NCBI GenBank assembly: GCA_944322815.1
Contig: CALUQB010000030.1
Coordinates: 1 to 34,512, forward strand
Reading direction: 5' to 3'
Length of the DNA: 34,512 nt
From: an uncultured Bacteroidales bacterium
Lineage (GTDB): Bacteria; Bacteroidota; Bacteroidia; Bacteroidales; UBA932
Part shown: positions 2,426-20,245 of the stretch, piece after piece
Position numbering within the stretch: position 1 is the first letter of the stretch
Layout: every line of letters begins with the position of its first letter
Translations under genes and position numbers: made by a program
Notes under the pieces: model-generated
The model's database searches: none
What the model was told of the DNA's origin: nothing
The model's input: only the letters and a program-made list of their open reading frames with translations

Positions 2426-2551
2426 TTAAAATTCCTCGCCATACTCCATGTCCGGAGCATCGATACCGTAACCAGGGCTTTGTGCAAAACCGAATTCAAC
2501 CGCCACATTGAGTTCCTCCAATGACGGCGACTCATAATTGTTTTTATTCAT
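2426..2551 (-). CDS. 41-residue peptide upstream of the fimbrillin-like lipoprotein
   Basis: The ORF runs from ATG at 2551 to TAA at 2428-2426. It encodes 41 residues starting MNKNNYESPSLEELNV and ending DMEYGEEF, is acidic, and has neither signal peptide nor membrane segment. Its stop lies 15 nt before the start of the lipoprotein gene, whose GGAGGA ribosome site fills the gap. I recall short Bacteroidales peptides with the same grammar (M, basic residues, Y-x-x-P, acidic middle, Gly/Ala/Ser, acidic or aromatic end) placed before fimbrillin-like or secreted proteins. That resemblance is from memory and is not a search result. A leader peptide controlling the downstream gene, or a small signalling or secreted peptide, are both possible. 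It is first in its transcription unit. Confidence 0.6.
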   Translation of the reverse strand: MNKNNYESPSLEELNVAVEFGFAQSPGYGIDAPDMEYGEEF

Positions 2552-2574: not shown

Positions 2575-2588
2575 TGTGTACTCACACA
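2575..2588. promoter_or_regulatory. Operator-like palindrome TGTGT-ACTC-ACACA
   Basis: A perfect 5-bp inverted repeat with a 4-nt spacer lies 24 bp upstream of the small ORF start. Downstream sequence (ACACAnnATTCA) is shared with the palindrome at 19877-19890 upstream of susC. A degenerate third site, AGTCTG-CATA-CACACT, lies at 2601-2616. The binding protein is unknown. Confidence 0.55.
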
Positions 2589-2649
2589 CTATTCACATAA
2601 AGTCTGCATACACACTTAAATATAAATAATTCCAATATTTTCATAATAC

Positions 2650-2672
2650 AAGTGTGTATGCACACAAAATTA
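2650..2672 (-). promoter_or_regulatory. Operator fused to a TAnnTTTG promoter box (site shared with susC)
   Basis: On the minus strand this reads TAATTTTG (the -7 consensus of Bacteroidota promoters, at 2672-2665) running straight into GTGTGCATACACACTT. The plus-strand segment AAGTGTGT-AT-GC-A-CACAAAATTA differs from 20008-20030, upstream of susC, at only three of 23 positions, all in the palindrome centre. No clear TTTG -33 box is seen at the usual distance. The palindrome would cover the start of transcription, which suits a repressor; an alternative sigma factor or activator is also possible. Confidence 0.55.
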
Positions 2673-2742
2673 AAATAAATTTTTCTGACCAGGAAATTTT
2701 ATTGATTTAATTTCATTTCCCAAGTCAGACACCGCTTTCCAA

Positions 2743-4662
2743 TCAGTCTTCCAGCATTCCCGACAGGGTACGCTTCATATTGTTATGGTCGCGGAAATCA
2801 TTTCTGAGTCCGTATTGACCGGAACGGTCGACAAGTACATACGACGGAATTCCGTCAATACCGAACTTGTCCGACAGATAATCCCACCGCTTCTGATCCA
2901 GACGATAATGCACACCTTCGATTTCCGAAATCATCTCTTTGTATTTCACCAAAGGAGACGATTCATTCGCGATATATATCCATACCATATCCTCATCTGC
3001 AAGCTCTGCGCTCTTCAGCGGCTCGACTGCCGCTATCGACGCACGACACGGAGCACACCATGTATTCCAGAAATCCACCAGCACGACCTTCCCCTTATAA
3101 GGGGCAATGATGGCGTCGAAAAGTTCCGAATCGTCCACATCAGGCACTTCCTTCATCCGCTCCATAGCCGAAAGTTCGGCCAGTGCCTTTTCAGTCTCGG
3201 CCTGCATCTTCCGGTAAGAATCCAGATAGAATTCATTGTCCATGGACTCCAGCACGGCAAAATCCTCATCAGTCAGAACGCCGTCCTGCGCTTTCTTCGA
3301 GAGCCCGTAAACCTTTCTCAAATCAGGGACCAGACCTGATTCCAGACCGGCAGCTGACGGCCAGTCAATATCAGGATCAGCGGCAGCCTCGGCAAATTCA
3401 GAAGACTTCGTTCCCATGAGAAGTTTCGGGTCGTTGATATCGAACAGGCTGCAGAACCTGGCATAATGCTCAGGATGCAGGCTCTCCATCCAGTCGAACT
3501 TCTTGTTCCAGAGATCCCACTTTCCGGTAACGTTCATGTAATTGTGCAGACGCAGATCATCAGCCTTTGCCATCGCTATGAAAGCGTCCTCTTTCAGATT
3601 CACGGTCTGGAGTTCTTTCAGCATCAAAGGAGATGAAGCGGCGGCGATACTGTCCACAGCAGCCTTGTATTTCGAAATGACATGGTCGGTATATTCATCG
3701 GCAGTCATCTTGTAATCGGCGAATTCCCCGCTGTAAAGATTCATGGAATATTGGCTGCCGCCCCCGTATGCCGCACACAGGGCTGTCAGATCACCGTACT
3801 TCCCGGAAGCATATATGAACCTGTTGCCGGCCAACTCCGGATAGACGCCTGTGACCTGTTCCATAGCTTGCAGACGGCTGAGCCAGCCCGTAATCCTCAT
3901 GTCGAACCAGACATCCATGTCATCCCCCGGAGCTATCCTGAAATCACCTCCGCAATAATTGTAAACGATCAGGGCATCCGCAGGCCCGCACTGCAGGAAA
4001 CGGAATTCGGCGATCGCCGTATCCTGGTCAATAGCTGCAGAATACGCCGTCTGTCCGAGCAACATCGAATTCACATAGATATCTATCTTGTCTCCCATTT
4101 CCGGCCTGTAATTCAGGAAATGGACCCTGACGACAGTCTCCCGGGCAGAAAAATCAGGGTCAGGAAGCGGCCTGTCGAAGTCCGGAGTTTTCCTGACCGC
4201 AGCAGGTATCCCTTTGGCAGGAGAATATTCCGTCTTTCCCGTCAGGTCTATGCCATAAAGCCGGAAACAAGTCTCGCAATCCGATTCTATGAAATCGAAA
4301 GACTTCGTACGCAACGGGAGAGGTTCGAAAACCAGCTTGAAAGATGCTTCCCCCGACTCAGGCATCCAGAAATGCTCGTCGAGCGGAATACCGTCCGCTC
4401 CTGTCAAAGCGTATTTTTCACCGTCCGCCACCAGATATGAATCAGACGAAATCTCAATCCAGTAACGAGGGATATACTGAGCCTCCACCGAAAGTACGGT
4501 GGAGGAATCCGTCAGTTCTACCTTTGAAATACCGACAATAGTCGTATTGCTGAAATCCACCAGAGGGAATTCCACCGTCTTTTCACGTGAAGACGAACAC
4601 GAGCCGAGGCAAAGGACCGCCATAACGGCGGCCAATGCCGGGATCAGAGAAAACCTGCCCAT
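2743..4662 (-). CDS. TlpA-like thioredoxin-fold lipoprotein
   Basis: This is a 639-residue lipoprotein (lipobox LGSC, Cys22). The C-terminal ~120 residues form a TlpA/ResA-type thioredoxin domain with the redox pair WCAPC at 535-539 and a cis-Pro loop, GIPSYV. The long N-terminal part (about 25-500) has predicted beta-rich then helical segments that I do not recognise; multi-domain thiol-disulfide oxidoreductases of this layout are common in Bacteroidales. It probably acts in the periplasm or on the outer membrane on disulfides of exported proteins. It is the last gene of the PUL run, starting 32 nt after bglX, and may serve the cysteine-containing lipoproteins of the locus. Its substrate is unknown. 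Confidence 0.8.
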   Translation of the reverse strand: MGRFSLIPALAAVMAVLCLGSCSSSREKTVEFPLVDFSNTTIVGISKVELTDSSTVLSVEAQYIPRYWIEISSDSYLVADGEKYALTGADGIPLDEHFWMPESGEASFKLVFEPLPLRTKSFDFIESDCETCFRLYGIDLTGKTEYSPAKGIPAAVRKTPDFDRPLPDPDFSARETVVRVHFLNYRPEMGDKIDIYVNSMLLGQTAYSAAIDQDTAIAEFRFLQCGPADALIVYNYCGGDFRIAPGDDMDVWFDMRITGWLSRLQAMEQVTGVYPELAGNRFIYASGKYGDLTALCAAYGGGSQYSMNLYSGEFADYKMTADEYTDHVISKYKAAVDSIAAASSPLMLKELQTVNLKEDAFIAMAKADDLRLHNYMNVTGKWDLWNKKFDWMESLHPEHYARFCSLFDINDPKLLMGTKSSEFAEAAADPDIDWPSAAGLESGLVPDLRKVYGLSKKAQDGVLTDEDFAVLESMDNEFYLDSYRKMQAETEKALAELSAMERMKEVPDVDDSELFDAIIAPYKGKVVLVDFWNTWCAPCRASIAAVEPLKSAELADEDMVWIYIANESSPLVKYKEMISEIEGVHYRLDQKRWDYLSDKFGIDGIPSYVLVDRSGQYGLRNDFRDHNNMKRTLSGMLED

Positions 4663-4694
4663 AAGCCTGTAGATTAAAAGTCATGTAAAACAAA

Positions 4695-7007
4695 TCAGTC
4701 CAAAGATTCGGCGGCGCATGACCTGATATCTTCATACACCACTTCGGCAGAGAGGGTCCGCTGCGAATCGGGACCGATCTCCACGACGAATTCACCGGTC
4801 TCCACTATGTATTTCAGATCCGGAGTCCAGAACCCAAGTTCGGAAACAGGCACCGTGAAATCCACTACACGGCTCTCACCCGGGGCGAGATCCACCTTGC
4901 TGAATCCTTTAAGCTCTTTCATCGGACGTGTGACGGAAGCCACGACATCACCTATGTATAGCTGTACAGTCTCGGACACAGCCCTGTCGGAAGTGTTCGT
5001 AACAGTCACCGAAGCCTTGACGGAACGGGACCCGGCATCATAAGATGCATTCATGTCGGAATAGTCCACCTGGCTGTAGGAAAGACCGTAGCCGAAAGGA
5101 TAAAGAGGATCCTGAGGACAGTCGATATAGCCGGTTCTGTATTTTCTGAACGGAATATGAGGACGGCCGGTAGATTTCATGCTGTAATATATCGGGACCT
5201 GGCCGACATTGCGAGGAAAAGTCATGGTCAGACGACCGGAAGGATTGTACTCGCCGAAAAGCACGTCAGCCACGGCATTGCCTCCCTGGAGGCCAGGAGC
5301 CCATGCATCCACTATGGCTGCGCAGTGGGCATCTTCCCATTCAAGAGTCATAGGACGGCCGCCGAGCAAGACCAGAACGACATCTTTTCCCGTAGCTACC
5401 AAAGCTTCAAGAAGACGCCTCTGAGTAGGTTGAAGGCCTATCCATGTCATGCTGGAAGACTCGCCGGACATCTTTGCGTTCTCGCCAAGCACGGCTACCA
5501 CGACATCAGACTTTTCGGCAGCCGACACCGCTTCCGCGATCAGGCTGTCCGGATCACCGGAACGTTCTATGTTCACGCCTATCATTCTGGCAAGGCCGGG
5601 ATTGTCGGTGATCGGGGCACCGACAGTGTGCATGAGAGAGGACGTATAGCGCGAGATTCCTGATTTGATGGAAACACCTTCTCCGGCCATGGCGGCAGCA
5701 CCGGCCCATGTGCCCATAAGTTCCCACTTGGTATCAGCCAGAGGGCCGACAAGCGCTACTCTGACATCTTTTTTCAGAGGCAGTACATTATGGTCGTTTT
5801 TCAGGAGCACTATGGATTTCCTGGCAGCTTCCAGAGCCAGAGAACGGTATTTCTCCCTGGCCACAGGCTCGCTGCACAGACGGAGATACGGATCTTCGAA
5901 CAGGCCGAGCTTGTATTTCGCCTCCAGGATACGGCGGCAAGCCACATCTATGTCAGCCTCGGTCAGCAGGCCGTTTTCCAGGCAATAGTCCAGATTTTTC
6001 ATCACGCCTTCTGACACCATATCCATGTCAAGCCCCGCCTTCAGTGCACGGGAAGACACTTCGGCCAGATTGCCCAGGCCATGTTCCGTCAGTTCGCCGA
6101 CAGATGTATAGTCGCTGACAGTGAAGCCGTCGAAGCCCCATTCGCCACGCAGGAGATCTGTCAGCAACCACTTGTTGGCAGTAGCCGGCACACCGTTGAT
6201 GTCATTGAACGAAGACATGATACTTCCCGCACCGGCATCCACGGCAGCCTTGTAAGGCAGGAAATATTCCTGATACATCCTGTTCGGACTCATATCCACC
6301 ATGTCATAGTCGCGTCCGCCCTCGCCTGCTCCATACAGGGCAAAGTGCTTCACGCAGGCCATCATGGACTGAGGGTCATCAAGGCTTTCTCCCTGATATC
6401 CGCGCACCATTGCCTCAGCAATACGAGAGCCGAGCCAAGGGTCTTCTCCGGAACTTTCAGCCACACGGCCCCACCTCGGGTCACGGACAAGATCCACCAT
6501 AGGAGAATATGTCCAGTCAATGCCTTCGGAAGTGGCTTCATCCGCAGCCGCACGTGCAGTACGTTCAATCAGGTCCATGTCCCAGCTGCATGAGAGCGCG
6601 AGAGGTATAGGCCATATCGTACGGTAGCCATGCACCACATCAAGCCCGAACATCAGAGGGATGCCGAGTCTGGTCTGCTCCACGGCAAGTTTCTGTATGT
6701 TGATCTTGTCCTCGAGAGTACGGACATTGAAGACGCCTCCTACCTTGCCATCGGCGATTTTCTTCGCCACACCCTTGCTCTGGGTCTCCCCCGTCATGAA
6801 GCTGCGGTCATATGTCACAAGAGTTATCTGTCCTGCCTTTTCCTCTATGGTCATCCGGGACATCAGATCGTCTATGAAGCGGTCCATTTCCGCATCTTCA
6901 GCTGTCCGGTCATCAGTATGACCCGTAGCGGCCGAGGTGGAGGCAAATGCCGGAAAAGCTGTCATCAGTGCTGCAGCGCAAAGCACCGGAAAAAACGTTT
7001 TTCTCAT
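4695..7007 (-). CDS. bglX: GH3 beta-glucosidase, BglX-like
   Basis: This 770-residue protein has an SPI-type signal peptide (to about residue 22), so it is probably periplasmic. GH3 N-terminal barrel signatures are RDPRWGR near 175-181, KHF at 220-222, and the nucleophile loop DGFTVSDY with Asp299. The second alpha/beta domain carries GENAKMSGESSS, which supplies the likely acid/base Glu. A fibronectin III-like C-terminal domain closes the protein (about 670-760). Length and order match BglX. It removes non-reducing beta-linked glucose or related sugars from imported oligosaccharides. It sits between the DUF4886 gene (18-nt gap) and the TlpA-like gene (32-nt gap), as part of the PUL operon. 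Exact sugar specificity cannot be read from sequence. Confidence 0.92.
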   Translation of the reverse strand: MRKTFFPVLCAAALMTAFPAFASTSAATGHTDDRTAEDAEMDRFIDDLMSRMTIEEKAGQITLVTYDRSFMTGETQSKGVAKKIADGKVGGVFNVRTLEDKINIQKLAVEQTRLGIPLMFGLDVVHGYRTIWPIPLALSCSWDMDLIERTARAAADEATSEGIDWTYSPMVDLVRDPRWGRVAESSGEDPWLGSRIAEAMVRGYQGESLDDPQSMMACVKHFALYGAGEGGRDYDMVDMSPNRMYQEYFLPYKAAVDAGAGSIMSSFNDINGVPATANKWLLTDLLRGEWGFDGFTVSDYTSVGELTEHGLGNLAEVSSRALKAGLDMDMVSEGVMKNLDYCLENGLLTEADIDVACRRILEAKYKLGLFEDPYLRLCSEPVAREKYRSLALEAARKSIVLLKNDHNVLPLKKDVRVALVGPLADTKWELMGTWAGAAAMAGEGVSIKSGISRYTSSLMHTVGAPITDNPGLARMIGVNIERSGDPDSLIAEAVSAAEKSDVVVAVLGENAKMSGESSSMTWIGLQPTQRRLLEALVATGKDVVLVLLGGRPMTLEWEDAHCAAIVDAWAPGLQGGNAVADVLFGEYNPSGRLTMTFPRNVGQVPIYYSMKSTGRPHIPFRKYRTGYIDCPQDPLYPFGYGLSYSQVDYSDMNASYDAGSRSVKASVTVTNTSDRAVSETVQLYIGDVVASVTRPMKELKGFSKVDLAPGESRVVDFTVPVSELGFWTPDLKYIVETGEFVVEIGPDSQRTLSAEVVYEDIRSCAAESLD

Positions 7008-7025
7008 CTTGCAATATCTTTATTA

Positions 7026-8180
7026 TCAATATTCAGACATGTCAGTGACTTCGTATGGTTTCAGGACAGCATTGTGGGCTGCAGTACGGGCGATGACAGC
7101 CTGATCGTCAGTGACGGAAGAGGGTTTCCAGGAAGTCTCGAGCACACTGTTGCCGGAAATTGACTCATACCAGGTGCAGGCGGCAGCGAAACGTCCGTAA
7201 TCCACATTCAAGTGATATCCGTCACGATTCCAGTTGTCACCGACAGAAGTGGTACGTCCGTTCTGGATGGTCGTACCGCACGGGATAAGGATCTCCAGCT
7301 CAGGATGGTTTTCCATGGAACGCCGTGAAGCATCCACTATCCCTTCATACATTACCATCTGATCCTTTCCGTAATTTGGAAACGCCGGATGGGTGGAATT
7401 CTGCGCATAGGCCCATGTCTGATGGAACATCAGTTTCATGTGCGGATTCGTCGCATGCTCACGTACATAGCCTATAAGGTCTTCAAGATACGGTTCATAC
7501 TTATCGTACATTCCGGAATAATCACTGGCCTGCTGGAGACTGATATAGTCCCAGTTCTCATCGGCAAGAGCCCTCTCCAGAGTATAACCTTTGGTATTGG
7601 TCTTGCTGCCGTTCACCACTTTCCGGTACTCGTAATCCGCAGTATTGTTCTGGGCATTGCCCCAATGCCTTTCCAGAGAACAGCCTCCGATGTACATGTT
7701 CCCTATGATCACCTCTTCTCCGGCCTCATCGAAAAGATTCCACAGATACTGCTCCACCGCATCCTGTGAAAAACTGTTTCCTATGGCGAGGATTCTCAAC
7801 GGCTCCGGCTCTGCGGGCGGTACTTCCTGTACTGTCAGACTGAATGTCCCGGACAGACGCTTGGTTTCTCCCGGGCATTCCACCTTCACCGTGGCCGTAC
7901 CGGGCTTCAGTCCGGATACAGTCACGCTGGTATTGTTGTCTTCCGTTATGGACAATATTTCCGGGTCCGATACGGACCATTCATAATCCAGGGATTCAGC
8001 CTCTTCGCTGCTGAATTTAGGGCTGACGACATATTCATCACCCACATATATGCTGGCATAAGACGGGCTTATGAGAAGCCATTTGTCATCAGGCACCGGA
8101 TCGGGTGCCGGTTCCTCGGCGCAGGAGAAGAGAACTCCTGCCAGCATGGCCATGAGGAACGATATGAGTATTTTCTTCAT
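7026..8180 (-). CDS. Ig-like plus DUF4886 SGNH-like lipoprotein
   Basis: From ATG at 8180 this is a 384-residue lipoprotein (lipobox LFSC, Cys20). Residues of about 35-118 form a bacterial Ig-like (BIG2-type) domain with GLKPGTATVKV. Residues of about 128-340 match DUF4886, an SGNH-hydrolase-like family: LAIGNSFSQD gives a probable nucleophile Ser136, and DGYHLN gives Asp320/His323. A deacylase acting on substituted glycans is plausible from family and context, but is not shown. An upstream ATG at 8210 overlaps the GH88 stop as ATGA and would add ten residues; I prefer 8180 because the signal peptide then begins MKK, but coupling from 8210 is possible. It lies between the GH88 and GH3 genes. 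Confidence 0.8.
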   Translation of the reverse strand: MKKILISFLMAMLAGVLFSCAEEPAPDPVPDDKWLLISPSYASIYVGDEYVVSPKFSSEEAESLDYEWSVSDPEILSITEDNNTSVTVSGLKPGTATVKVECPGETKRLSGTFSLTVQEVPPAEPEPLRILAIGNSFSQDAVEQYLWNLFDEAGEEVIIGNMYIGGCSLERHWGNAQNNTADYEYRKVVNGSKTNTKGYTLERALADENWDYISLQQASDYSGMYDKYEPYLEDLIGYVREHATNPHMKLMFHQTWAYAQNSTHPAFPNYGKDQMVMYEGIVDASRRSMENHPELEILIPCGTTIQNGRTTSVGDNWNRDGYHLNVDYGRFAAACTWYESISGNSVLETSWKPSSVTDDQAVIARTAAHNAVLKPYEVTDMSEY

Positions 8181-8206
8181 TTTCAGTTTTTCGGGAATAT
8201 CCTGAC

Positions 8207-9412
8207 TCATCTGAGATCACGGTATCTGAGAAGAGCCTCAAGGAAATAATAATCGCTGTATGTAAGAGGTACGTCTACTTCTACTCCGCCAGGCTTGTTG
8301 CCCACACTGTGTTTCAGCAGGAAGCCGCATTCCTCACCTGGAGCCGACATGTACTCGTCCGAAGCCAATGTCCTCAGGATACGCTCGGCTGCGGAAAGAT
8401 ATTTTTCAGCGGAAGCATCCGGAACGTATGTACTCAGCTGTACAAGGGCACTGGCCATGATGGCTCCGGCAGAAGCATCCCTCAGATCATCCGGAATCTC
8501 GTCAGAATCGAAATCCCAGTATGGCACACCGTCATCAGGAAGACGGGGAAGCAGATATTCGGCTATCCTCACGGCATGGTCGAGATACTGCCTGCCGCCG
8601 GTGTACTGATACATCATCGTGAAACCGTAGAGTCCCCACGCCTGTCCGCGAGACCAGGCTGACCAGTCTGCAAATCCCTGGACTGTCTGCTGCACGAGCA
8701 CATCTCCAGTCACGGGATCATAATCCACCAGATGAAAACTGCTGGCATCATCCCTGAAATGATTCTTCATGGTAGTCATGGCATGGCTCTCGGCCACTGT
8801 CCTGAGACTGTCATCCCCGCAGAGCTGCGAAGCTTTCAGCAACAGTTCCAGATTCATCATATTGTCGATGATGACAGGGAATTTCCAGGCTGCTATGTGA
8901 TCAGGCGCCGGGTCCCAGCTGCGGAGACACCCCACTGCAGGATTGAATCTTGTAGCCAGGGAATGCGCCCCGTCGCAGAGAACGTCCTTATATTCCGGAT
9001 TTCCGGTGAGCCTGTAGCCGTTTCCGTAGCTGCAATTCAGCTGGAAGCCTACATCATGGTCGTTTGTCCTGAATCGTATCGAATCGAGGACCACGGTATG
9101 CTTTTCGGCAAGGGCCTTCATGTTTTCGTCACCCGTGTACTCATACACCAGCCACAGTGAGCCAGGGTAAAAGCCCGAGCACCACCACCAGATGCTCGAA
9201 GTGACCAGATTACCTTCTTGGTCTGCATATCGCGGGCACAAGGCAGCATCTGCACCGAATCCTGCGGCATCGAGGTTCGAATCCAGCAGAGCCATCTGCT
9301 CTGCCGCACGGGTGAATACACGTTCTGTAAGGTCCTCCATGGACTCTGTTCTGGTACAGGCAGCCGCCATAATGCAGGAGACCACCAGGAATGTGGTAAA
9401 TATTTTCTTCAT
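8207..9412 (-). CDS. GH88 unsaturated glucuronyl hydrolase lipoprotein
   Basis: This is a 401-residue protein with a lipoprotein-type leader (AAAC, Cys19). It has the (alpha/alpha)6 GH88 signatures: SSIWWWCSGFYPGSLW, a DHDVGF loop with Asp120, IIDNMMNLELL with Asp183, and WSRGQAWGLYG. The two acidic residues are spaced much like the known catalytic pair of the Bacillus unsaturated glucuronyl hydrolase. The family hydrates and cleaves 4,5-unsaturated uronic acids from ends made by polysaccharide lyases. Its presence implies an acidic glycan substrate such as a glycosaminoglycan, although no lyase is recognisable here. The stop overlaps the alternative start of the next gene by 4 nt. GH105 is a related alternative. 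Confidence 0.9.
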   Translation of the reverse strand: MKKIFTTFLVVSCIMAAACTRTESMEDLTERVFTRAAEQMALLDSNLDAAGFGADAALCPRYADQEGNLVTSSIWWWCSGFYPGSLWLVYEYTGDENMKALAEKHTVVLDSIRFRTNDHDVGFQLNCSYGNGYRLTGNPEYKDVLCDGAHSLATRFNPAVGCLRSWDPAPDHIAAWKFPVIIDNMMNLELLLKASQLCGDDSLRTVAESHAMTTMKNHFRDDASSFHLVDYDPVTGDVLVQQTVQGFADWSAWSRGQAWGLYGFTMMYQYTGGRQYLDHAVRIAEYLLPRLPDDGVPYWDFDSDEIPDDLRDASAGAIMASALVQLSTYVPDASAEKYLSAAERILRTLASDEYMSAPGEECGFLLKHSVGNKPGGVEVDVPLTYSDYYFLEALLRYRDLR

Positions 9413-9460
9413 ATTAAAATAATCAGATGTTTATTATACGATAATATCTGTACCGATGTT

Positions 9461-11119
9461 TCAGTTTACAGTGACATTGTCGAGCTTCACCCATCCGTCC
9501 TCTGTCAGGGAATCCTTGTCCACCGCCACCTGGATACCTATCGGATGTATGCCTTCCCCGTCATCCAAAGTGGTGTCTACCAGTCCGACAGCCCAGATAT
9601 AGCCGCCGATGGCGACTTTCTTCACGGAAATGTCGAAGTCGTAGGATGCCGGCGAGCCTTTCAGCCATGTGGAAAGATCCGTACTCTCGTCCACGAACTG
9701 ATAGACCGGCTTTTCTGTCTGCATGTCGAGCAGGGCATAGGCTACTTTGTACTTCTGGTTCCACTGCTTGAGATTCGTAGGGCAGACTCCCCAGCCGAGA
9801 TTCAGCCAGCGGGATGTGACGGTCACATCGTCCCCCATTTTCACGGACTCAGGCACTGAAACCCTGTCAGGATAAAGACGGTAGCCGCCTTCCTGAATAA
9901 ACCTTTCCACGTACGGGAAAGCTTCCTCGAACCATGAACGAACCTCGTCGCCTACGCGAAAATCCATCATGTTCACGCAAGCCAGCTGTCCCTCCAGGAA
10001 TTCGCCTTCCCTGACATCACCTGCAGTCTCGTAACCCTCAGCCGCTATACTTGACTGATGTCCGGAATTCGTCCATACATAGCCGCCTTCGAGAATAATG
10101 GGAAGTACATTGTTCCACTGTCTCACGTAATTTCTTTCCCAGTCATTGTAGCCCCAGTCCTGGTTGTGCATGCCGAAAGAGTCGGCACGGAGACAGTAGC
10201 CGTTGTCTATGGCTATCTGGAGCAGATGCTCGCTGTCTGGCTGCGCGTTCTTGCCGGAACTTCTCGGATGGCCTATCTGGCGGTGATAATTGATGACCAG
10301 AGGCACCTTAGTAAAACAGCGTGAATACAGAGAGGTGATCCACTCCATGGTATTTTCCTTATACTCGACAGTCTTGTCGGACACTATACCGTCACCGTAC
10401 TTCGTATAGGTTATTCCGTTATCGACCTCTGTACCTGTCACTTCCAGGCCCTCATAGCATACGTTGTGTCCTTCACCCCATTTGCCGAGACCGTATCCGT
10501 CGATGAAGGCTATTTTGGTCGGATCATTGAATTTCTCGGCAAAAGCCTCGATGAATTTCTCGTAACACTCGCGCCATACAGGATCCGTGACATCAGGGAC
10601 TTTGCGGTCGCTGAATCTCGGGATTTCGGACGACGGCCAATAGGCTGCCCCTTTCTCATAAACCCACTCCGGCGTATTCGCTCCCTGGTCGCGGCCGTCT
10701 ACTACGACACGGAAAGCCATAGGAAGGCCGAGTTCCTGGGCACGGGTGTAGATCTTGTACAGACTGCTGTTCGGGTCATCCCAGAAATAGACGTTTTCCT
10801 CAGGATTGAAGTTCCTCCAGTTCGTCCGCACGTAAATGCAGGAGGCATAATCCGCTACTCTGACATTTTTTTTCAATGATGAGACATAGAATTCCGTATC
10901 CAGATACGATGGATCGGCAGTGCCGGAAACATACATCACCCATCCGGTCATCGGGTTTTTAAGCACGGAAGTCCTGTCAGGCAACATCTTTATCTGGACA
11001 TTTCCTGCCGTGACGGTAGATCCTCCGCCATTGTCCTCACCGTTAGGTTCCTTCTCTCCGCAGGCTGCCGCCAATGACATGGCCAGTACCGGGAAGAGAA
11101 TAAATTTACTTAGTTTCAT
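9461..11119 (-). CDS. DUF4874/DUF4832 lipoprotein, putative glycan-active barrel (copy A)
   Basis: This is a 552-residue lipoprotein (Cys20 after LAAA). The N-terminal half starts with NPMTGWVMY, typical of DUF4874, and looks like a TIM barrel. GLGKWGEGHN places Glu216 at a strand-4-like position, and IILEGGYVW places Glu344 at a strand-7-like position, which resembles the acid/base and nucleophile layout of clan GH-A. The C-terminal ~150 residues form a beta domain (DUF4832) starting near RVSVPESV. No biochemical activity is known to me for these families. The start has a strong ribosome site (AAAGGAG, 7 nt upstream), unlike its neighbours. It is paralogous with the next protein (11227-12936), and the hairpin element at 11161-11213 precedes it. 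I infer an exported hydrolase or sugar-binding role. Confidence 0.75.
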   Translation of the reverse strand: MKLSKFILFPVLAMSLAAACGEKEPNGEDNGGGSTVTAGNVQIKMLPDRTSVLKNPMTGWVMYVSGTADPSYLDTEFYVSSLKKNVRVADYASCIYVRTNWRNFNPEENVYFWDDPNSSLYKIYTRAQELGLPMAFRVVVDGRDQGANTPEWVYEKGAAYWPSSEIPRFSDRKVPDVTDPVWRECYEKFIEAFAEKFNDPTKIAFIDGYGLGKWGEGHNVCYEGLEVTGTEVDNGITYTKYGDGIVSDKTVEYKENTMEWITSLYSRCFTKVPLVINYHRQIGHPRSSGKNAQPDSEHLLQIAIDNGYCLRADSFGMHNQDWGYNDWERNYVRQWNNVLPIILEGGYVWTNSGHQSSIAAEGYETAGDVREGEFLEGQLACVNMMDFRVGDEVRSWFEEAFPYVERFIQEGGYRLYPDRVSVPESVKMGDDVTVTSRWLNLGWGVCPTNLKQWNQKYKVAYALLDMQTEKPVYQFVDESTDLSTWLKGSPASYDFDISVKKVAIGGYIWAVGLVDTTLDDGEGIHPIGIQVAVDKDSLTEDGWVKLDNVTVN

Positions 11120-11160
11120 TTCCTTATCTCCTTTAATACATTAACGTCTAATATACTGAT

Positions 11161-11213
11161 GTCAGTCCGATGAATTATTCTATTCAATACCGGAAATTTC
11201 ATCGAGCTGGCAC
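11161..11213. repeat. Hairpin element, second copy (duplicate of 12990-13042)
   Basis: This 53-bp block matches 12990-13042 at 41 positions, and all 12 differences are transitions. It lies 42 bp upstream of the copy A start, as its twin lies 54 bp upstream of copy B. The arms (GTCAGTCCGATGAA and the TTCATCGAGC side) pair imperfectly: one C-G pair has become T-A and two changes give U-G wobbles in plus-strand RNA. Confidence 0.75.
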
Positions 11214-11226
11214 TCAATCAAACATA

Positions 11227-12936: not shown

Positions 12937-12981
12937 ATGGAATAAAAATGCCGTTATTAAATTTTTCTGCTGTTATACCAG

Positions 12982-13201
12982 TAATTAACGTCAGTTCGAC
13001 GAATCATTCTACTCAGTACCAGAGATTTCGTCGAACTGACGTTACGATTTCTTCGAAATCTCTTTCCATTTACGTGTCACCCCTCTTAAATTCTCCCCTC
13101 TCGTAGGGGAGAACTTACTGCCGGATTCGTAAAACGAATCCTCTAAAAGAGGCAGTTCTCTGAAATTCACTTCGTTCTTTTCATCGAACTCACGTTAATT
13201 A
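12982..13201. repeat. 220-bp block with 22-bp inverted ends (MITE-like or structured leader)
   Basis: Left end 12982-13003 (TAATTAACGTCAGTTCG and following) and right end 13180-13201 are inverted copies matching at 20 of 22 positions. A third copy of the right arm lies inside at 13027-13044 and makes an 18-bp perfect stem with 12986-13003 over a 23-nt loop. No clear target-site duplication flanks the block, so a mobile origin is only one reading. Confidence 0.65.
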
Positions 13202-13206
13202 ATTTA

Positions 13207-13242
13207 AGGGACGGCTCTGAATTCATGATCCGAGCCGTCCCT
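13207..13242 (-). terminator. Rho-independent-type terminator after SusE gene
   Basis: Perfect 11-bp arms AGGGACGGCTC (13207-13217) and GAGCCGTCCCT (13232-13242) flank a 14-nt loop. On the minus strand the stem is followed by TTAAATTAATT. It lies 45 nt past the stop of the SusE-like gene and probably separates, wholly or partly, the SusCDE unit from the downstream enzymes. Confidence 0.75.
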
Positions 13243-13286
13243 GCTCATGCTGTAGAACCTACTAACCTATAATGGCCTTTGCATGC

Positions 13287-14651
13287 TTAATCGAAACGAA
13301 TCTTACTGTTTCTGATATCAATAGTAATTTTCTTGATATTTACAGTGGATTCAGGCTGCCATCTCTTGTTGCTGACATCTGTTGACATAGTCATCCAGGT
13401 GTTCATCTGAAGAGGAACATCAGCCTCTCTGCCTGGTGAGAATGCGGCAACACGGGACGTAAAGTTTACTTCATTGTCTTTCTCAGGATCATCACCGGTA
13501 GAACCCTTGTCCTCGTATACGAAATGTTCAAGAAGTCTTCCGACCTTGACACTGCAACCGGATGTCGGAATGCTCAATGTCGTTCCGTCTCCCCATACGA
13601 GAATCTGCGGATCTATAAGCGATGCCTCGAACTGAAGCGGATAGTTAGCCTTCCAACCGTCGGTACCGTTGTTCAAGTAGAGGTAATACTCTCCTGGAAG
13701 AATCTCTCTCGACAATACTCTGTCAGAAGAATACGCATAATTGAATCTTATGACTGCCGGCTCAAGTTTGTTCTTAGGTGAATAGAACTGAACGGTCTCG
13801 TTCTCCATATCGATGATCACTCTCCAGTCTCCTTCGACAGGAAGATTCCATGCAGGGAGTTCGTCAGGATCACCACTGTCAGGAAGATCCAGCACTTTGG
13901 CTTTATAAGCCTCGGTAGGAGCCGGCTTGCCTTCCACAAGATCAGCATCAGGTACATCGATTGTCTCACCCTCGGCAGGACAGATATACAGCGTAGCACC
14001 ATCCTGAAGAACAGGAATCGTCATCTTGCCTGCAGCCATCTTGAATTCTCCGGCATATACATACTCGTTTTCGGGAGTCGTAGACATAGTATAATTCATG
14101 GATGGCATAATTCCTCTCACTGCATCGCCGTCAAGGTTGACACGGTCAGCCTCGAAGACATTAGGCCTGTAAGGAAGAACATCCACATCTACTGTGCGGA
14201 CTTCAGGCATCACATATTTCGAACCGCCCTCCCACTTCGCAATGACCTTGAATGAAAGGGTAGTCACTTCGGAAACGGACTGCACCCACTTGTCGACTAT
14301 GTAGTTCTGAAGGTCTTCCGTTGTATAAGTCATGGAAAACACATCGTCATCCACGACTTCTCGTATAACAGTAGAAGAACTGAACTGGTTGACCTTGAGG
14401 TCAAGCATAGTAACATACGTAAGTATATACTCATCGGACATTTCCCTCGCAGGGGTCCAGGTAAATGTAAGAGCCGGCTCGTCCAGAAGCGATTCATCAA
14501 GCTCTATGCTTGCCGAAGAAGCTTCAAGAACCATGGTCTCGTCGTTGTCGAGAAGCCAGGAGTTGTCATACTCCTCGTAGTCATCAGCACAGGAAGTAAG
14601 TCCCGTGACTGAAAGTGCGAAAGCACTGAGATATAAAAGTATCTTTTTCAT
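13287..14651 (-). CDS. susE: SusE-like outer-membrane glycan-binding lipoprotein
   Basis: From ATG at 14651 this is a 454-residue lipoprotein (lipobox LTSC, Cys21). An in-frame ATG at 14675 would add eight residues before the signal peptide and is less likely. The N-terminal ~110 residues match the SusE domain, with a fibronectin-like pattern (ASIELDESLL, LTFTWTPA). Later modules contain LYICPAEG, WNLPVEGDWRVIID and FYSPKNK, typical of SusE/SusF starch-binding-type repeats, and the end is a DPQILVWGD-containing beta domain. It should sit at the cell surface and bind the target glycan. It lies 26 nt after susD, completing the SusCDE unit, and a terminator follows. Its C-terminal half is shared with the lipoprotein at 800-2410. 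Confidence 0.85.
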   Translation of the reverse strand: MKKILLYLSAFALSVTGLTSCADDYEEYDNSWLLDNDETMVLEASSASIELDESLLDEPALTFTWTPAREMSDEYILTYVTMLDLKVNQFSSSTVIREVVDDDVFSMTYTTEDLQNYIVDKWVQSVSEVTTLSFKVIAKWEGGSKYVMPEVRTVDVDVLPYRPNVFEADRVNLDGDAVRGIMPSMNYTMSTTPENEYVYAGEFKMAAGKMTIPVLQDGATLYICPAEGETIDVPDADLVEGKPAPTEAYKAKVLDLPDSGDPDELPAWNLPVEGDWRVIIDMENETVQFYSPKNKLEPAVIRFNYAYSSDRVLSREILPGEYYLYLNNGTDGWKANYPLQFEASLIDPQILVWGDGTTLSIPTSGCSVKVGRLLEHFVYEDKGSTGDDPEKDNEVNFTSRVAAFSPGREADVPLQMNTWMTMSTDVSNKRWQPESTVNIKKITIDIRNSKIRFD

Positions 14652-14677
14652 ATTGACTTTTCTGTTAAATTCCACTG

Positions 14678-16678
14678 TTACCAGCCCGGAAGCTGTCTGA
14701 GGTTAGGATTCCTGTCTATGTCATCCTGAGGGACAGGCCACCAGTAGCTCTTGAACACACGGCGCTGGTATTCAGTACGCACATAGAATTCTTCAGGAGT
14801 GCCTGCATCCATGTTCATACCATAGAACGGACCGTTGAGTTCTGTCTCTGCCAGCTTCCAGCGGCGGAGATCCTGCCAGCTAAGACCGCCTTCGCAGTTC
14901 AGCTCTATACGGCGTTCCCTGCGGATAAGATCCCTTGCTGTAAGACCGGCTGCAGCAGCTGCTGCATCAATATCTCCGAGCTCTGCAGATCCATATTCCG
15001 GAATACCGGCTCTTCTGCGGATCTTGTTGATATTTTCCGTAATCTCTTGCTTGTAACTGTCATACTCACCTATTTCGTCAGAGATGCTGTACTCGTAAAG
15101 ACATTCTGCATAAGCAAGATATGCTTCAGCAAGACGATAGATGGCACCATGTCTCTTGTTGAACTGACCTGAAGATGAAGATCCGAGATAATCAGGAGCA
15201 ATTCTTTTTTTCATCAAATAACCTGCTGTAGGATAGTCGGAGCCGTCCTTTCCGTCTTCTTGACCGACAAAGAAGTTAGCATACTTCTTATTTACAGGGT
15301 TTGCAGCTGTCTGATCCTTGTGAGTCTTGGCCCAGTTGAATGACTCGTTATACATTACGGAAATATAGAAACGAGGTTCACGGTTACAATACATATTATA
15401 TGTACCAGACTCAGTTATAATATGCTCTTTCTTTCCATCACCACTGTATCCGTTAGGGTCATTATAGAAATAGTTAGTCTTGGCAGTCATATCAACAGTA
15501 GAATAGTCACTGGCCTGAGGTGCCTCACCAAAAGCAGCTTCAGTATACCCTGAACCATTGTTCGGTATAATCGGGGAACCATCTGCATTATGACCGCTGA
15601 TAGCGACCTTTCCGTTGTTCATGAAGAACGCATCCACCAGGTCCTGGGTAACACCTACCACACCGGCCTGGGACTGAATGCTTCTTGGAGCTGATTTCAT
15701 GTCAAGCCAGCCAGCTCCGTCCTCAGTACGAGGCATTATCAGTTCATAATTACCTTCATTCCTGCGAAGCATGAGTGCACCGAAATAGCTCATATATGGA
15801 TCCGGCTGTCCCTCCACGGCATCGGCTTCATACAGAGCGTAACCGTTAGCCTCCGCCACATCGATAAGCTCTTTGTTCGCATCGGCAGCAAGTTTCCATC
15901 TGTAAGGATCATATTGTGATGTAAAGATCGCTTCTCCGTCACAGTTCACCACACCGGCCATGTCCGGATTACCGTTCACAAGCGGGCTGGCAGCAAATGT
16001 CAGCAGACGGGCACGCATGGCCAAAGCCCAGAGGGCTGTAGCACGTCCATAGTCATTAGCCATATCGGAATATGTCATAGGAAGTACTTTGGATGCCTCC
16101 TCCAATTTCTCTGCACACCAGTCAACAACCTCATAGAACGGACGCTGCTTGATCATAAGGTCCTCGGCATTCGTAGTAGGAGCCGCTTCCGAAATAATAG
16201 GAACAGAACCATAAGTCATTACCATGAGAGAATGGAAATATGCTATGAAAAATTCACATTCCGCTTTCATGATATCAATATCCTTCTGAGACACATCCGT
16301 AAGCGGATGGGCATTCTCGATAAAGATATAGGCAGATCTGATACGCTTAGGAAGATTTGACCAATAATTAATGATCTGGCCGTTGCTCGGTGTCCAGTTT
16401 CCTGTCTGATAGTTGCAGACATTGTTTCCCACGGAAATCCACTCTGCAGGAGTTGTACAGTCCTTTCCTATCATGTCCCAGTTGGAATCGCCATAGAACT
16501 GCGGGATACCGTCGTAAATGTAGGCAAGCCATCTGTCGAGATTCTTGCTGTTCTCGAATGCTGACTCTATGTCAAGCTGGTCATCAGGCCTCTTGTCCAG
16601 ATAGTCAGAACATCCGGATATGAACGGCAAGATAGCAGCCAGCATTACCAATATTATCCTATTTTTCATAATTTTCAT
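14678..16678 (-). CDS. susD: SusD/RagB-family glycan-binding lipoprotein
   Basis: This is a 666-residue lipoprotein (lipobox ISGC, Cys23), beginning the mature part with SDYLDKRPDDQLD as SusD proteins do. SusD/RagB features include the TPR-like helices (AYIFIENAHPLTDVSQKDI, ALWALAMRARLLTFAASP) and the C-terminal signature RRIELNCEGGLSWQDLRRWKLAE, ending near WWPVPQDDIDRNPNLRQ. It is longer than the usual 500-600 residues, with insertions around 370-470. It forms the lid on the SusC transporter and binds oligosaccharide at the surface. It starts 9 nt after the susC stop, so the two genes are co-transcribed. Confidence 0.95.
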   Translation of the reverse strand: MKIMKNRIILVMLAAILPFISGCSDYLDKRPDDQLDIESAFENSKNLDRWLAYIYDGIPQFYGDSNWDMIGKDCTTPAEWISVGNNVCNYQTGNWTPSNGQIINYWSNLPKRIRSAYIFIENAHPLTDVSQKDIDIMKAECEFFIAYFHSLMVMTYGSVPIISEAAPTTNAEDLMIKQRPFYEVVDWCAEKLEEASKVLPMTYSDMANDYGRATALWALAMRARLLTFAASPLVNGNPDMAGVVNCDGEAIFTSQYDPYRWKLAADANKELIDVAEANGYALYEADAVEGQPDPYMSYFGALMLRRNEGNYELIMPRTEDGAGWLDMKSAPRSIQSQAGVVGVTQDLVDAFFMNNGKVAISGHNADGSPIIPNNGSGYTEAAFGEAPQASDYSTVDMTAKTNYFYNDPNGYSGDGKKEHIITESGTYNMYCNREPRFYISVMYNESFNWAKTHKDQTAANPVNKKYANFFVGQEDGKDGSDYPTAGYLMKKRIAPDYLGSSSSGQFNKRHGAIYRLAEAYLAYAECLYEYSISDEIGEYDSYKQEITENINKIRRRAGIPEYGSAELGDIDAAAAAAGLTARDLIRRERRIELNCEGGLSWQDLRRWKLAETELNGPFYGMNMDAGTPEEFYVRTEYQRRVFKSYWWPVPQDDIDRNPNLRQLPGW

Positions 16679-16687
16679 ATATAACTT

Positions 16688-19600
16688 TTAGAATTTAATT
16701 TCAAGACCTGCAGAGAATGATCTCATGAGAGGGTAACGTCCTCCGTCAGCAGAATTAAGTTCAGGATCCCAGAGCTTGAAGTCCGAGAATGTAAGTACGT
16801 TGGATCCCCTGAGGAATATACGCGCACCTGAGACAAATGATCTGTCAGCCCATCTCTCAGGAATAGACCATCCGATTTCAATATTCTTAAGTCTCAGATA
16901 GCTCATGTTCTTCAGCCACCATGATGAAGCTACAGCGTTGTTTGTGTTCGGTCCGTAGGTCAGACGAGGATAGAACACATCCTGGCTCGGATTGTCCACT
17001 GTCCAGCGGTCCTGATAGTTGCTGAATACGTTGTAGTATCCGCCTGTATCGTAACCTGGGATGATATTTGAAGACATAAGCCTCCACATCCTTCCTGTTC
17101 CTTGGAAGAGGACACCGAAGTCGAAGCCTTTCCATGCAAGGTTCAACCCGAAACCATAGACAATCTCAGGGTCCACGGTACCCCCGATAGGTGACTGATC
17201 ATAAATATCGATCTTGCCATCGCCGTTCACATCCTTGTGTTTGATATCACCGGGACGGATATCATTATAGAGAGTATTCTTAGGGAGGTCCGGACTGAGA
17301 ATATATCTTCCACTTTCATCCTGGCCTATGAAATCCTCTTCAGTATAAAGCCCTTCATCGATGTATCCGAAGATCTGGCCTACAGGATGGCCTGTCTTTG
17401 CCCTGTTGGTACCTACTACTGATGCAGGCTCGTCCATCTCGACGATTTCATTGTGAGCATAGGTGAATGTACCCATAAAACCTACATAGAGACCATTATG
17501 AAACTGCTTTCTGAGATTGATGGTCACTTCAGCACCCTGATTCTTTACCTTACCGAAGTTCTGCCATGGTGACTTGATGAAACCTGCGGTAAGAGGAATG
17601 GAAGTACGTTCCATGAAGATGTTGTTTCTCCTTTCGTCGAATACATCGATGGACATGTCGAAGACTCCGTCGAAGAGACCGATCTCGAGACCGATATTGG
17701 CCTTGTTCACCTTCTCCCATGACAAGTCAGGCACACCGAAATCGCCTTCAGCCATACCGGTGATACCGTATCCGCCATCCATACCCCACTTGTACATATC
17801 TAGTGTATTATAGTCATCGGTGATGGTAGAAAGGTAGGCGAAACGACGGCCGCTAAGGGATGCATTACCTGTCTGACCGTAAGATGCACGAATCTTGAGG
17901 TTACTGAGTACTCGCTTGGCTGGCGCCATGAAAGGCTCTTCCGAGATCACCCAGCCGATAGCTCCTGAAGGGAAGAAACCGTAACGTTTGCCAGGAGCGA
18001 AGTTCTCGGAACCGTTGTATCCGAAGTTGAATTCTGCCACATACCTGTCATCGAATGTATAGGCAGCCCTACCTGCGATACCTTGATTTCTATAAGGGAG
18101 CTTGTCTCCGTTATCATAGTTGCTTCTCTGGGCGAGGAGCATACCTGACACGGCATGCTTGCCGGCGAATGTCCTGTCGTAGTTGACAGCAAATTCCAGA
18201 TACAATCTGCGGTTTCCATATGTACCGGATACCTCATGTCCGAGCGTATTGCTGCCGGTAGAAGTCCTGTTCAACACGAGAGTACCGTCCTCGTTTCTCT
18301 GACGGGTAGGTGTATAAAGATCCGGAGAAGTCGAACGTTTGACAGTACCTGAAGAGAAACGGTCAAAAGAGAATGTAGCCTTGGCCCTCAATCCCGGAGT
18401 AATAAACTTGAAATCCTGCTCCAGCGAGAAGAGAGTCTCTATCTTTGATTCACTGGTATTCTGGTAACCCATCTGTGTTGCCATAGCCCAAACGTTTCCT
18501 TCAGCTCCTGCAGGAATCTCTCCTGAAGAATAACGGACAGGATAATCGAAAGGAACTGTACGGAACGCACGGCTGAAAATAGTCTCGACACTCTGCGTAG
18601 TGGAGTTGCGGTCCTGAAGATATCCTCCGATGTTCACACGGAACTTGGTGGTCTTGGTGATGTTTATGTCCACATTCGAACGGACATTGTATCTCTGGAG
18701 CTTGATGGAAGGGTCCCATTCGCGGCCCGGGTCACGGGTGAGGATACCCTGCTCGTTGTAAAAGGCAGCCACCAGGGAATAAGTGAGGACATTGTTACCT
18801 CCGGAAACCTCAGCTGTCACACGCTGGTTTGATGCCCAGTCTTTAGTGATGGCATCTATCCAGTTTACATCAGGATAAAGGTCAGGGTCATATCCTGCAC
18901 GGGTTTTCGCAATACGATCCGTGTACATCGGAGTCATTCCGCAGTCCACACGGATGTCGTCGAGGAGCTGCATGTAGTCTGCCGCACCGATATAGTCAGG
19001 GAGCTTGACAGGCTGAGTACCGGCAAATTCGGCCTTTATAGTCACTCTCGGCTTTCCGATCTCACCGCGTTTGGTCTGGATCAGGATGACACCGTTCGCA
19101 CCGCGCACACCGTAAACCGCACTCGCTGCCGCATCCTTGAGGACTGAGAAAGAGGCGATTTCCTCAGGATCGATGTTGTCGATATCACGCTCGATACCGT
19201 CGACCAGCACGAGAGGGTCACGACCTGCATCCTGGAATGTGGAGATACCACGGATCCAGAATGTGGAGTTATCGTAGCCAGGCTCTCCTGAACGCTGTAC
19301 AGCCAGCACACCGGCCACCGTACCGGCGAGGTTGTTACTCAGGGAACGTGAAGTACCGACTTTCAGTTTCTCTGGCTCGATAGCCGCGATGGATGCGACC
19401 ACAGACTCTTTCTTCTGCTGTCCGTATGCCACTACCACTGCATCCTGGAGCTGTCCGATATCTTCAGCAAGTACCACATTCACCACTCTTCTGTTTCCGA
19501 CCTGGATCTCCTGGGAAATGAAGCCGATATAGCTGACTTCCAGGATGGCCCATCTGTCGGGCACTGTGAGAGAGTAGTTACCGTCGATGTCAGCGATGGC

Positions 19601-19819
19601 ATGTACATCATTGTTCCCTTTCAGGAGGATGGTAGCACCAGGAAGCGGGTCTCCGTTCTCGTCGGAGACGTTTCCTATGACATCGATGGCACTGTCCGAA
19701 TCAGGCGCCTGCTGTCGTCCGGCAGTGCCTGCGTATGCAGAAAAGGACAGCACGGCCATGAAGGCCAGTATCGCTGCGGCTTTCCTGCCAAACAAGCTTG
19801 AAATAGGGTTACATAACAT
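16688..19819 (-). CDS. susC: SusC/RagA-family TonB-dependent outer-membrane transporter
   Basis: From ATG at 19819 this is a 1043-residue protein with a cleavable leader (KAAAILAFMAVLSFSAYAG). A further in-frame ATG at 19891 would add 24 residues without signal character and would run through the operator, so I reject it. Domains in order: carboxypeptidase-regulatory-like beta sandwich (VIGNVSDENGDPLPGATILL, about 45-125), TonB plug (VVVAYGQQKKESVVASI through VYGVRGANGVILIQTKRG, about 125-260), then the 22-strand barrel ending in LEIKF. There is no STN domain, so it is not an ECF-signalling type. With SusD it imports oligosaccharides, powered by TonB/ExbB/ExbD such as those encoded divergently. 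The first gene of the PUL. Confidence 0.95.
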   Translation of the reverse strand: MLCNPISSLFGRKAAAILAFMAVLSFSAYAGTAGRQQAPDSDSAIDVIGNVSDENGDPLPGATILLKGNNDVHAIADIDGNYSLTVPDRWAILEVSYIGFISQEIQVGNRRVVNVVLAEDIGQLQDAVVVAYGQQKKESVVASIAAIEPEKLKVGTSRSLSNNLAGTVAGVLAVQRSGEPGYDNSTFWIRGISTFQDAGRDPLVLVDGIERDIDNIDPEEIASFSVLKDAAASAVYGVRGANGVILIQTKRGEIGKPRVTIKAEFAGTQPVKLPDYIGAADYMQLLDDIRVDCGMTPMYTDRIAKTRAGYDPDLYPDVNWIDAITKDWASNQRVTAEVSGGNNVLTYSLVAAFYNEQGILTRDPGREWDPSIKLQRYNVRSNVDINITKTTKFRVNIGGYLQDRNSTTQSVETIFSRAFRTVPFDYPVRYSSGEIPAGAEGNVWAMATQMGYQNTSESKIETLFSLEQDFKFITPGLRAKATFSFDRFSSGTVKRSTSPDLYTPTRQRNEDGTLVLNRTSTGSNTLGHEVSGTYGNRRLYLEFAVNYDRTFAGKHAVSGMLLAQRSNYDNGDKLPYRNQGIAGRAAYTFDDRYVAEFNFGYNGSENFAPGKRYGFFPSGAIGWVISEEPFMAPAKRVLSNLKIRASYGQTGNASLSGRRFAYLSTITDDYNTLDMYKWGMDGGYGITGMAEGDFGVPDLSWEKVNKANIGLEIGLFDGVFDMSIDVFDERRNNIFMERTSIPLTAGFIKSPWQNFGKVKNQGAEVTINLRKQFHNGLYVGFMGTFTYAHNEIVEMDEPASVVGTNRAKTGHPVGQIFGYIDEGLYTEEDFIGQDESGRYILSPDLPKNTLYNDIRPGDIKHKDVNGDGKIDIYDQSPIGGTVDPEIVYGFGLNLAWKGFDFGVLFQGTGRMWRLMSSNIIPGYDTGGYYNVFSNYQDRWTVDNPSQDVFYPRLTYGPNTNNAVASSWWLKNMSYLRLKNIEIGWSIPERWADRSFVSGARIFLRGSNVLTFSDFKLWDPELNSADGGRYPLMRSFSAGLEIKF

Positions 19820-19876
19820 AGTAATAGTATTAATTGAAGTTATTAATAATGCCGGCCTGTTCTGCATCCTGTTTAG

Positions 19877-19890
19877 TGTGTATATACACA
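19877..19890. promoter_or_regulatory. Perfect palindrome TGTGTATATACACA upstream of susC
   Basis: This fully symmetric 14-mer lies 57 bp upstream of the chosen susC start. It and the flanking ATTCA match the site at 2575-2588 upstream of the small ORF. It is likely an operator for a dimeric DNA-binding protein that is not encoded in the window. Confidence 0.6.
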
Positions 19891-20007
19891 TAATTCAATG
19901 CATTACACAACGGCAGACAGGGTGCGGAAAATTACAGTCATACATTAAATTGTTTATATTCAGTAATTTGTCTCAGTATTTCATTAACCATGTGTCAGCA
20001 ATTTTAA

Positions 20008-20030
20008 AAGTGTGTTCGCCCACAAAATTA
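20008..20030 (-). promoter_or_regulatory. Operator fused to TAATTTTG box, upstream of susC
   Basis: The minus strand reads TAATTTTG (20030-20023) then GTGGGCGAACACACTT. It agrees with 2650-2672 at 20 of 23 positions. Transcription from here would give a susC leader of roughly 190 nt containing the second palindrome. The TTTG -33 box is not evident, as in the other copy. Confidence 0.55.
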
Positions 20031-20237
20031 TATTTTTTTTGGATAAAAAACTAATTTATTTGGATTTTTGTCATCATGACTTAGCGTAAATTTCCGCCGA
20101 TAGCTTTCCCGGCCTCCTGGAATTCCTGCATATAAGGGACTGAGGAATTATAGCGGGCCGCCGACAGTGACAGAAGAAATTTGGGCCGGACTTCAGAAAA
20201 ATTTCACTCCAGATTACCGAATTGTGATTTGTTTGAT

Positions 20238-20245
20238 TACTTTTG
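20238..20245 (+). promoter_or_regulatory. Possible -7 box (TACTTTTG) for the ExbB-TonB operon
   Basis: TACTTTTG fits TAnnTTTG. No good TTTG lies at the usual -33 position, and the leader to exbB would be about 195 nt, so this call is tentative. Confidence 0.3.

Follow-up and report, generated by a model that had tools for sequence, protein, structure and literature searches.

The stretch of DNA analysed here (the window: 34,512 nucleotides, contig CALUQB010000030.1 of the uncultured Bacteroidales assembly GCA_944322815.1) carries an ordinary Bacteroidetes glycan locus. The gene of a SusC/RagA TonB-dependent transporter (susC) is followed by susD, a susE-like lipoprotein gene and genes for enzymes and further proteins, and beyond these lies a distal unit made up of a small open reading frame (ORF) and a lipoprotein gene (Table 1). 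No match to a hybrid two-component system (HTCS) was found in the window, hence none beside susC, and no extracytoplasmic function (ECF) or SusR gene was noticed by eye among its ORFs, in agreement with the preliminary description, which had recognised none of the three. A polysaccharide utilization locus without a regulator of its own raises the question of what switches it on; here a candidate regulator encoded in trans can be named from the sequence, by way of four TGTG-N6-CACA palindromes, two before susC and two before the small-ORF/lipoprotein unit.

The palindromes reported in the preliminary description are present. Three exact copies of the core TGTGTNNNNACACA lie at 2575-2588, 2653-2666 and 19877-19890; a fourth copy, at 20011-20024 (TGTGTTCGCCCACA), has one mismatch. 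The two outer sites had been described as fused to an identical box, and this was borne out: the 23-mer at 2650-2672 matches that at 20008-20030 in 20 positions, and in each of them the minus strand shows TAATTTTG, with the operator core starting inside it. TAATTTTG fits TAnnTTTG, the -7 promoter element of Bacteroidetes whose consensus is quoted in an excerpt of PMC7366714, and is predicted to be the core promoter box. A scan of 12900-20400 for sigma-70 type promoters gave 12 against 11.3, no excess, as expected for the phylum. The centres of the outer and inner sites lie 134 bp apart at susC and 78 bp apart at the small-ORF unit. Only the site at 20011-20024 has a central CG; the other three, including both inner sites, are even palindromes without it. 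The additional degenerate copy that had been noted at 2601-2616 does exist (2601-2614) and has nothing special about it; it is probably not a strong operator.

Table 1. Genes and predicted control sites of the locus (positions are those of the window)
Feature	Position	Strand	Remarks
susC, SusC/RagA TonB-dependent transporter	16688..19819	-	
susD	14678..16678	-	
susE-like lipoprotein	13287..14651	-	
DUF4832-like lipoprotein	11227..12936	-	below Pfam cut-off
Protein resembling its DUF4832-like neighbour (11227..12936) by eye	9461..11119	-	no Pfam match
GH88-like protein (unsaturated glucuronyl hydrolase family)	8207..9412	-	
DUF4886 protein	7026..8210	-	
GH3 glycosidase	4695..7007	-	
Thioredoxin-like protein	2743..4662	-	
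Small ORF, 41 aa, first gene of distal unit	2426..2551	-	relatives in L058 (61%, E 3e-6) and weakly L006 (42%, E 0.013)
Distal SusE/fimbrillin-like lipoprotein, second gene of distal unit	800..2410	-	48% identical to L058 protein; no Pfam match
Predicted outer operator of susC	20011..20024	-	minus strand TGTGGGCGAACACA, central CG; matrix rank 3 in window
Predicted TAATTTTG box at susC	20023..20030	-	fits TAnnTTTG; 2-base overlap with outer operator
Predicted inner operator of susC	19877..19890		TGTGTATATACACA; in leader, 58 bp before start codon at 19819; matrix rank 1
Predicted outer operator of small-ORF/lipoprotein unit	2653..2666	-	minus strand TGTGTGCATACACA; matrix rank 2
Predicted TAATTTTG -7 type box of small-ORF/lipoprotein unit	2665..2672	-	fused to outer operator
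Predicted inner operator of small-ORF/lipoprotein unit	2575..2588		TGTGTACTCACACA; 24 bp before small ORF; matrix rank 4
Degenerate copy	2601..2614		2 mismatches; outside best 15 matrix hits in window

When TGTGTN4ACACA was counted in the window at up to two mismatches, 16 sites were found and 11.5 expected. As this is no significant excess, we relied on exact, box-fused and matrix tests instead. The genome of the window (G000) comprises 2,675,811 bases in 64 contigs. It holds exact TGTGTN4ACACA at five places, three of them in the window (reversed control, two), and the exact box-fused form TAATTTTGTGN6CACA at three, two in the window and the third on contig C13, upstream of the FAD-dependent oxidoreductase gene of another glycan locus. 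With up to two mismatches the fused form gave 16 matches as compared with three for the reversed control. In the genome-wide scan that the preliminary description had proposed, the motif thus exceeds chance. The looser TGTGN6CACA occurs 26 times in the genome (control, 11), and four of these sites are in the window; 12 of the 26 score at least 12 with the matrix described below, the four window sites among them. This pattern overlooks sites with an altered TGTG or CACA, such as the one at C13 45799.

When 151 genomes of the genus were scanned for TAnnTTTGTGN6CACA, 70 matches in 45 genomes were obtained; the reversed control returned five, with the promoter box not preserved. Twenty stretches around matches were inspected, two from the genome of the window (C16 and C48) and 18 from sister genomes, picked non-randomly because the genome had several sites or the site a CG-like centre; in 11 of them a LacI-type gene was recognised by its helix-turn-helix (HTH). 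One of these genes, LacI-A (G000:C16:8567-9631), is divergent from uxuB and uxuA of glucuronate catabolism, which encode a short-chain dehydrogenase/reductase named D-mannonate oxidoreductase by NCBIfam and a mannonate dehydratase. The operator TTTGTGCACGTACACA lies in the intergenic region between LacI-A and uxuB/uxuA (C16:9856-9869). The LacI-A protein has the LacI HTH (PF00356, 46 bits; cut-off 27) and a Peripla_BP_4 effector domain (PF13407, 93.7 bits; cut-off 35.1), and among solved chains it is closest to 3gbv, a putative LacI regulator. Of the five LacI genes in the genome, another, LacI-B (G000:C48:9939-11021), is 47% identical to LacI-A. A full HTCS gene stands directly after LacI-A on C16 (L053 2512-6543).

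The motif was then defined outside the genome of the window. For 22 LacI-A relatives from other genomes (at least 52% identity), the 320 bp upstream contained the palindrome in 21 cases, in exact form in 12 and with one mismatch and a central CG in nine; these sites were located by searching for TGTG/CACA, so that search was not blind. A count of dyads that assumed no motif, made over 23 regions with the genome's own included, gave TGTG-N6-CACA as the most enriched (13 of 23, 0.12 expected), although it came first only after correction for base composition; in raw counts TTTT-N12-AAAA (17) and AAAA-N10-TTTT (14) exceeded it. Fusion of the operator to a uxuB-side TAnnTTTG, the arrangement of the outer sites of the window, was seen in 16 of the 23 regions. 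From the 20 distinct regions of the 21 operators in other genomes we built a symmetric matrix, with consensus TGTGTACGTACACA and a central CG of 0.92. LacI regulators as a rule have even palindromic operators with a central CG (excerpt of PMC4052901), and by its sequence the trained motif belongs to this type. The first four ranks of the matrix in the window were the four sites, 19877 (16.6), 2653 (14.8), 20011 (14.0) and 2575 (12.5); the next hit lies inside susC (18661-18674, 11.3). None of 300 simulated windows contained four such sites, the mean being 0.21 sites that good per window, although single stronger sites occur by chance (best 22.7).

We subsequently compared orthologous loci. SusD orthologs with E below 1e-180 were found in 19 of 400 genomes of the genus, and with G405 these gave 20 loci, the window included, in which sites scoring at least 14 were sought upstream of the susC frame. 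Ten loci have the operator (G000, G110, G139, G114, G377, G236, G127, G346, G181 and G230), at scores of 15.4-22.8 in the nine other than the window, and L154 has an inner-type site (12.8) similar to that at 19877..19890. No full HTCS gene was found in the 4.9-14.6 kb examined upstream of susC in these ten (4.9 kb for G110). In eight loci without such an operator (G393, G178, G290, G313, G106, G405, G368 and G311) an HTCS gene lies 0.06-5.1 kb from the susC frame; it was called by Pfam in four (L152, L156, L248 and L249) and by phmmer with the C16 HTCS in the others. The ninth testable operator-less locus, that of G343, showed neither element in the stretch examined; this genome has an HTCS-like gene without a recognised kinase domain near uxuA on another contig. 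The G272 stretch ends too early and stays outside the testable set. A weak site (10.6) lies upstream of susC in two of the eight HTCS loci, those of G106 and G405, and the hits of 14.8 and 11.4 in G178 fall inside the HTCS coding frame and were left uncounted. Operator and upstream HTCS are thus mutually exclusive in these loci (Fisher p 1.2e-4, kinship not corrected). On a tree of SusC and SusD the operator label needs three changes, all forced by well-supported branches, which may represent one gain and two losses; shuffled labels needed 6.3 on average and as few as three in 3 of 500 shuffles, on a tree with long outgroup branches.

In G377 a short AraC-type protein is encoded just before susC alongside the operator. 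It is 52% identical to an HTCS output domain and has a likely membrane segment (by eye). The arrangement looks like an intermediate stage; the protein is possibly a working regulator of its own. Short proteins with an AraC-type HTH_18 domain as their only domain and a likely membrane segment (by eye), are encoded just upstream of susC at L150:6116-6703 and L255:174-719 (G000:C32), and resemble HTCS output domains without a sensor.

LacI-A co-occurs with the operator. All ten operator-bearing genomes have it, at 56-83% identity in the nine besides the window's own, and among 300 genomes counted by hand it was present at 55% identity or more in 10 of 12 with a SusD ortholog as compared with 11 of 288 others. 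The nine operator-less genomes are divided: LacI-A was found in five and in none of G393, G313, G106 and G405, G393 having the locus and an HTCS with neither operator nor LacI-A. In G311 and G368 a single contig carries LacI-A (11-12 kb from susD), uxuB, uxuA, an HTCS gene and susCD, all inside 20 kb, with an operator in the uxuR-uxuB region and none before susC.

The distal unit has a single close relative among the loci examined, in L058 of G114 (lipoprotein 48%, small ORF 61%), where TAATTTTGTGTGTTTGCACA, which fits TAATTTTGTGN6CACA, stands upstream; none was seen in the G110 stretch inspected. In L151, a stretch that occupies the position of the susE gene matches the C-terminal part of the distal lipoprotein with 39% identity over 272 aa. 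Relatives of the small ORF (2426-2551) precede similar lipoproteins in L058 and, weakly, in L006 (15348-15458), and it may be a conserved small gene.

Several observations weigh against control of the locus by LacI-A. G178, G290, G343, G368 and G311 have both LacI-A and the locus but no operator before susC, so the presence of LacI-A does not imply control of the locus, and the association of operator with LacI-A is by itself modest (Fisher p 0.033). Most of the genomes are incomplete, including some without LacI-A, where the gene may be on a missing piece. The window sites (12.5-16.6) all score below the 20 distinct training sites (16.8-24.8), 19877 narrowly so, and three of the four lack the central CG. 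In G139 and G230, 505-548 bp separate the operator from the first ATG in the susC frame. LacI-B has, by eye, the same HTH residues as LacI-A in the region of the recognition helix and could bind too. At the distal unit, the L058 site scores only 6.9, and no site reaching 11.5 precedes the related unit in the window's genome (C13, L006). Set against the results above, these points leave a probability of about 0.8 that the palindromes are operators of LacI-A, a UxuR-like repressor of the LacI family. The preliminary description had one regulator acting on both SusCDE and the distal lipoprotein. For susC this is strongly supported by sequence, since the operator occurs in the LacI-A intergenic region and is kept before susC in nine other genomes with LacI-A; for the distal unit the support is weaker, coming from the two window sites and L058.

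Binding mainly by LacI-B, or by both paralogues, is unlikely. Beyond its HTH residues, LacI-B shares its contig with a GH3 gene whose promoter carries TATATTTGTGCTCGTGCACA. Yet LacI-B is missing from the operator-bearing G139, G127 and G377, and is therefore not required: G139 and G127 keep the susC operator with only LacI-A and a 29-31% relative, and in G377 only LacI-A appears at E 1e-40. A search of the 400 bp upstream of three LacI-B genes (L114, L115 and L116) revealed no palindrome.

We regard it as improbable that an HTCS or other AraC-type regulator encoded elsewhere, for example the C16 HTCS next to LacI-A, controls the locus while the palindromes are incidental. The position of that gene and the upstream HTCS in 8 of 9 testable operator-less loci speak for such control, and an HTCS could act in addition to LacI-A. 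However, HTCS motifs have been described as direct repeats (excerpt of PMC3878776), unlike the palindrome, whose conservation in ten loci without a full HTCS in the upstream stretch examined would be left unexplained.

TGTG-N6-CACA resembles the classical CRP site, and a CRP-family regulator of the Cur/BT4338 type might bind the palindromes for global carbon control. This is very improbable: 26 sites in the genome, four of them in one window, fit a global regulon poorly, and the half-sites differ by eye from those of TATGTT-N4-AACATA, the Bacteroides BT4338 consensus being wwwTATGTTnTAnAACATAwww (excerpts of PMC3878776 and PMC6989115). Least credible of all is a chance or RNA origin, as a hairpin or terminator, for which we found no support beyond the ability of the palindromes to fold, given the simulations, the lack of any Rfam match in the window at gathering score and the recurrence of the motif at varied distances in uxuR promoters of other genomes.

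Strong sites elsewhere in the genome suggest, from sequence, a multi-locus regulon of LacI-A. They were found before a GH3 gene on C48 (the TATATTTG box), 44 bp before a C48 gene whose product resembles the DUF4832 type (by eye), 74 bp upstream of the susC of another locus on C32, and at C13 45799 (18.3) before a gene resembling GH3 (by eye). Good scores at C13:31524 (inside a coding region), C1:7930 and C4:87614 were not counted, as these places have no clear promoter context.

Most LacI regulators bind DNA without ligand (excerpt of PMC4052901), and with TAATTTTG as the core promoter the arrangement at the locus looks like repression. We infer the binding, the effector, the sign of control, the role of the inner site and the control of the distal unit as follows. 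A ligand-free LacI-A dimer on the outer operator, which extends downstream from within the -7 box, would sit across the transcription start and block initiation; the inner operator in the leader may strengthen repression by a road-block or loop. An intermediate of the glucuronate pathway, arising from breakdown of the glycan, would free the operators of LacI-A and so induce susCDE and the enzyme genes, the distal unit and uxuBA together. Relief by such a metabolite is suggested by the linkage to uxuB and uxuA, by the presence of the GH88-like gene and by the way LacI regulators usually behave.

UxuR (BT1434), UxaR and KdgR are LacI-family hexuronate regulators of Bacteroides (excerpts of PMC3878776 and PMC4052901). 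LacI-A resembles UxuR in its family, its uxuB and uxuA neighbours and an operator before its own gene and uxuBA. In Bacteroides xylanisolvens, B. finegoldii and a Parabacteroides, TGTGNNCGNNCACA stands upstream of LacI relatives followed by uxuB and uxuA, at all three loci with uxuBA adjacent, and sites of at least 12 occur in 8 of 15 loci from eight distant genomes with LacI relatives. LacI-A is, however, only 30-34% identical to the uxuBA-linked relatives, those of Bacteroides standing at 30%, and is divergent from uxuBA where theirs is in line with it. A further difference from Bacteroides UxuR is the operator before the susC of a glycan locus and before the distal lipoprotein unit. ManR of B. 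thetaiotaomicron (BT2103) is likewise a monosaccharide regulator that also controls a SusC/SusD system (excerpt of PMC3878776). Like ManR, LacI-A would be a cytoplasmic monosaccharide regulator with such a second target, but ManR is of the GntR family and responds to another sugar. BT4338/Cur has in common with the present system a palindromic site and sugar catabolism, and differs in its half-sites. The window differs from HTCS-controlled polysaccharide utilization loci in having no HTCS, and a palindromic operator instead of the direct repeats described for HTCSs; the orthologous locus in eight related genomes has an HTCS upstream of susC. UxuR-type regulators are already known, and what is new is this wiring; in a limited literature search we found no description of a SusC/SusD locus at which a UxuR-type operator and an HTCS replace each other.

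The reading we favour is that a locus under HTCS control in relatives was taken over by a UxuR-like repressor. We lean slightly towards a wider account, in which control of the locus switched at least three times in the genus between an upstream HTCS and a trans-encoded UxuR-like repressor, and in which this repressor is now a hub for glycan loci (C30, C13, C32 and C48) and uxuBA in the window's genome. If so, sensing moved from a periplasmic oligosaccharide to a cytoplasmic breakdown product. With two alternative control logics at the same locus in sister species, regulator replacement becomes testable, and operators of monosaccharide repressors may be worth seeking at other orphan loci.

Further features were observed around the sites and in the window. 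The site at C48:15011 lies within an inverted repeat of 28 bases (L054 15004-15031), of which 24 positions are self-complementary. In G114, box-fused operators with non-CG centres at L055 5669 (TGTGTGTGAACACA) and 9275 (TGTGTGTAAACACA) on contig C4 precede an array of similar small lipoprotein-like genes (by eye). In the window itself, repeats of the RRGYGSSRSYGD type form an array on the N-terminal side of a protein that by eye resembles pseudouridine synthases (22462-23919, plus strand).

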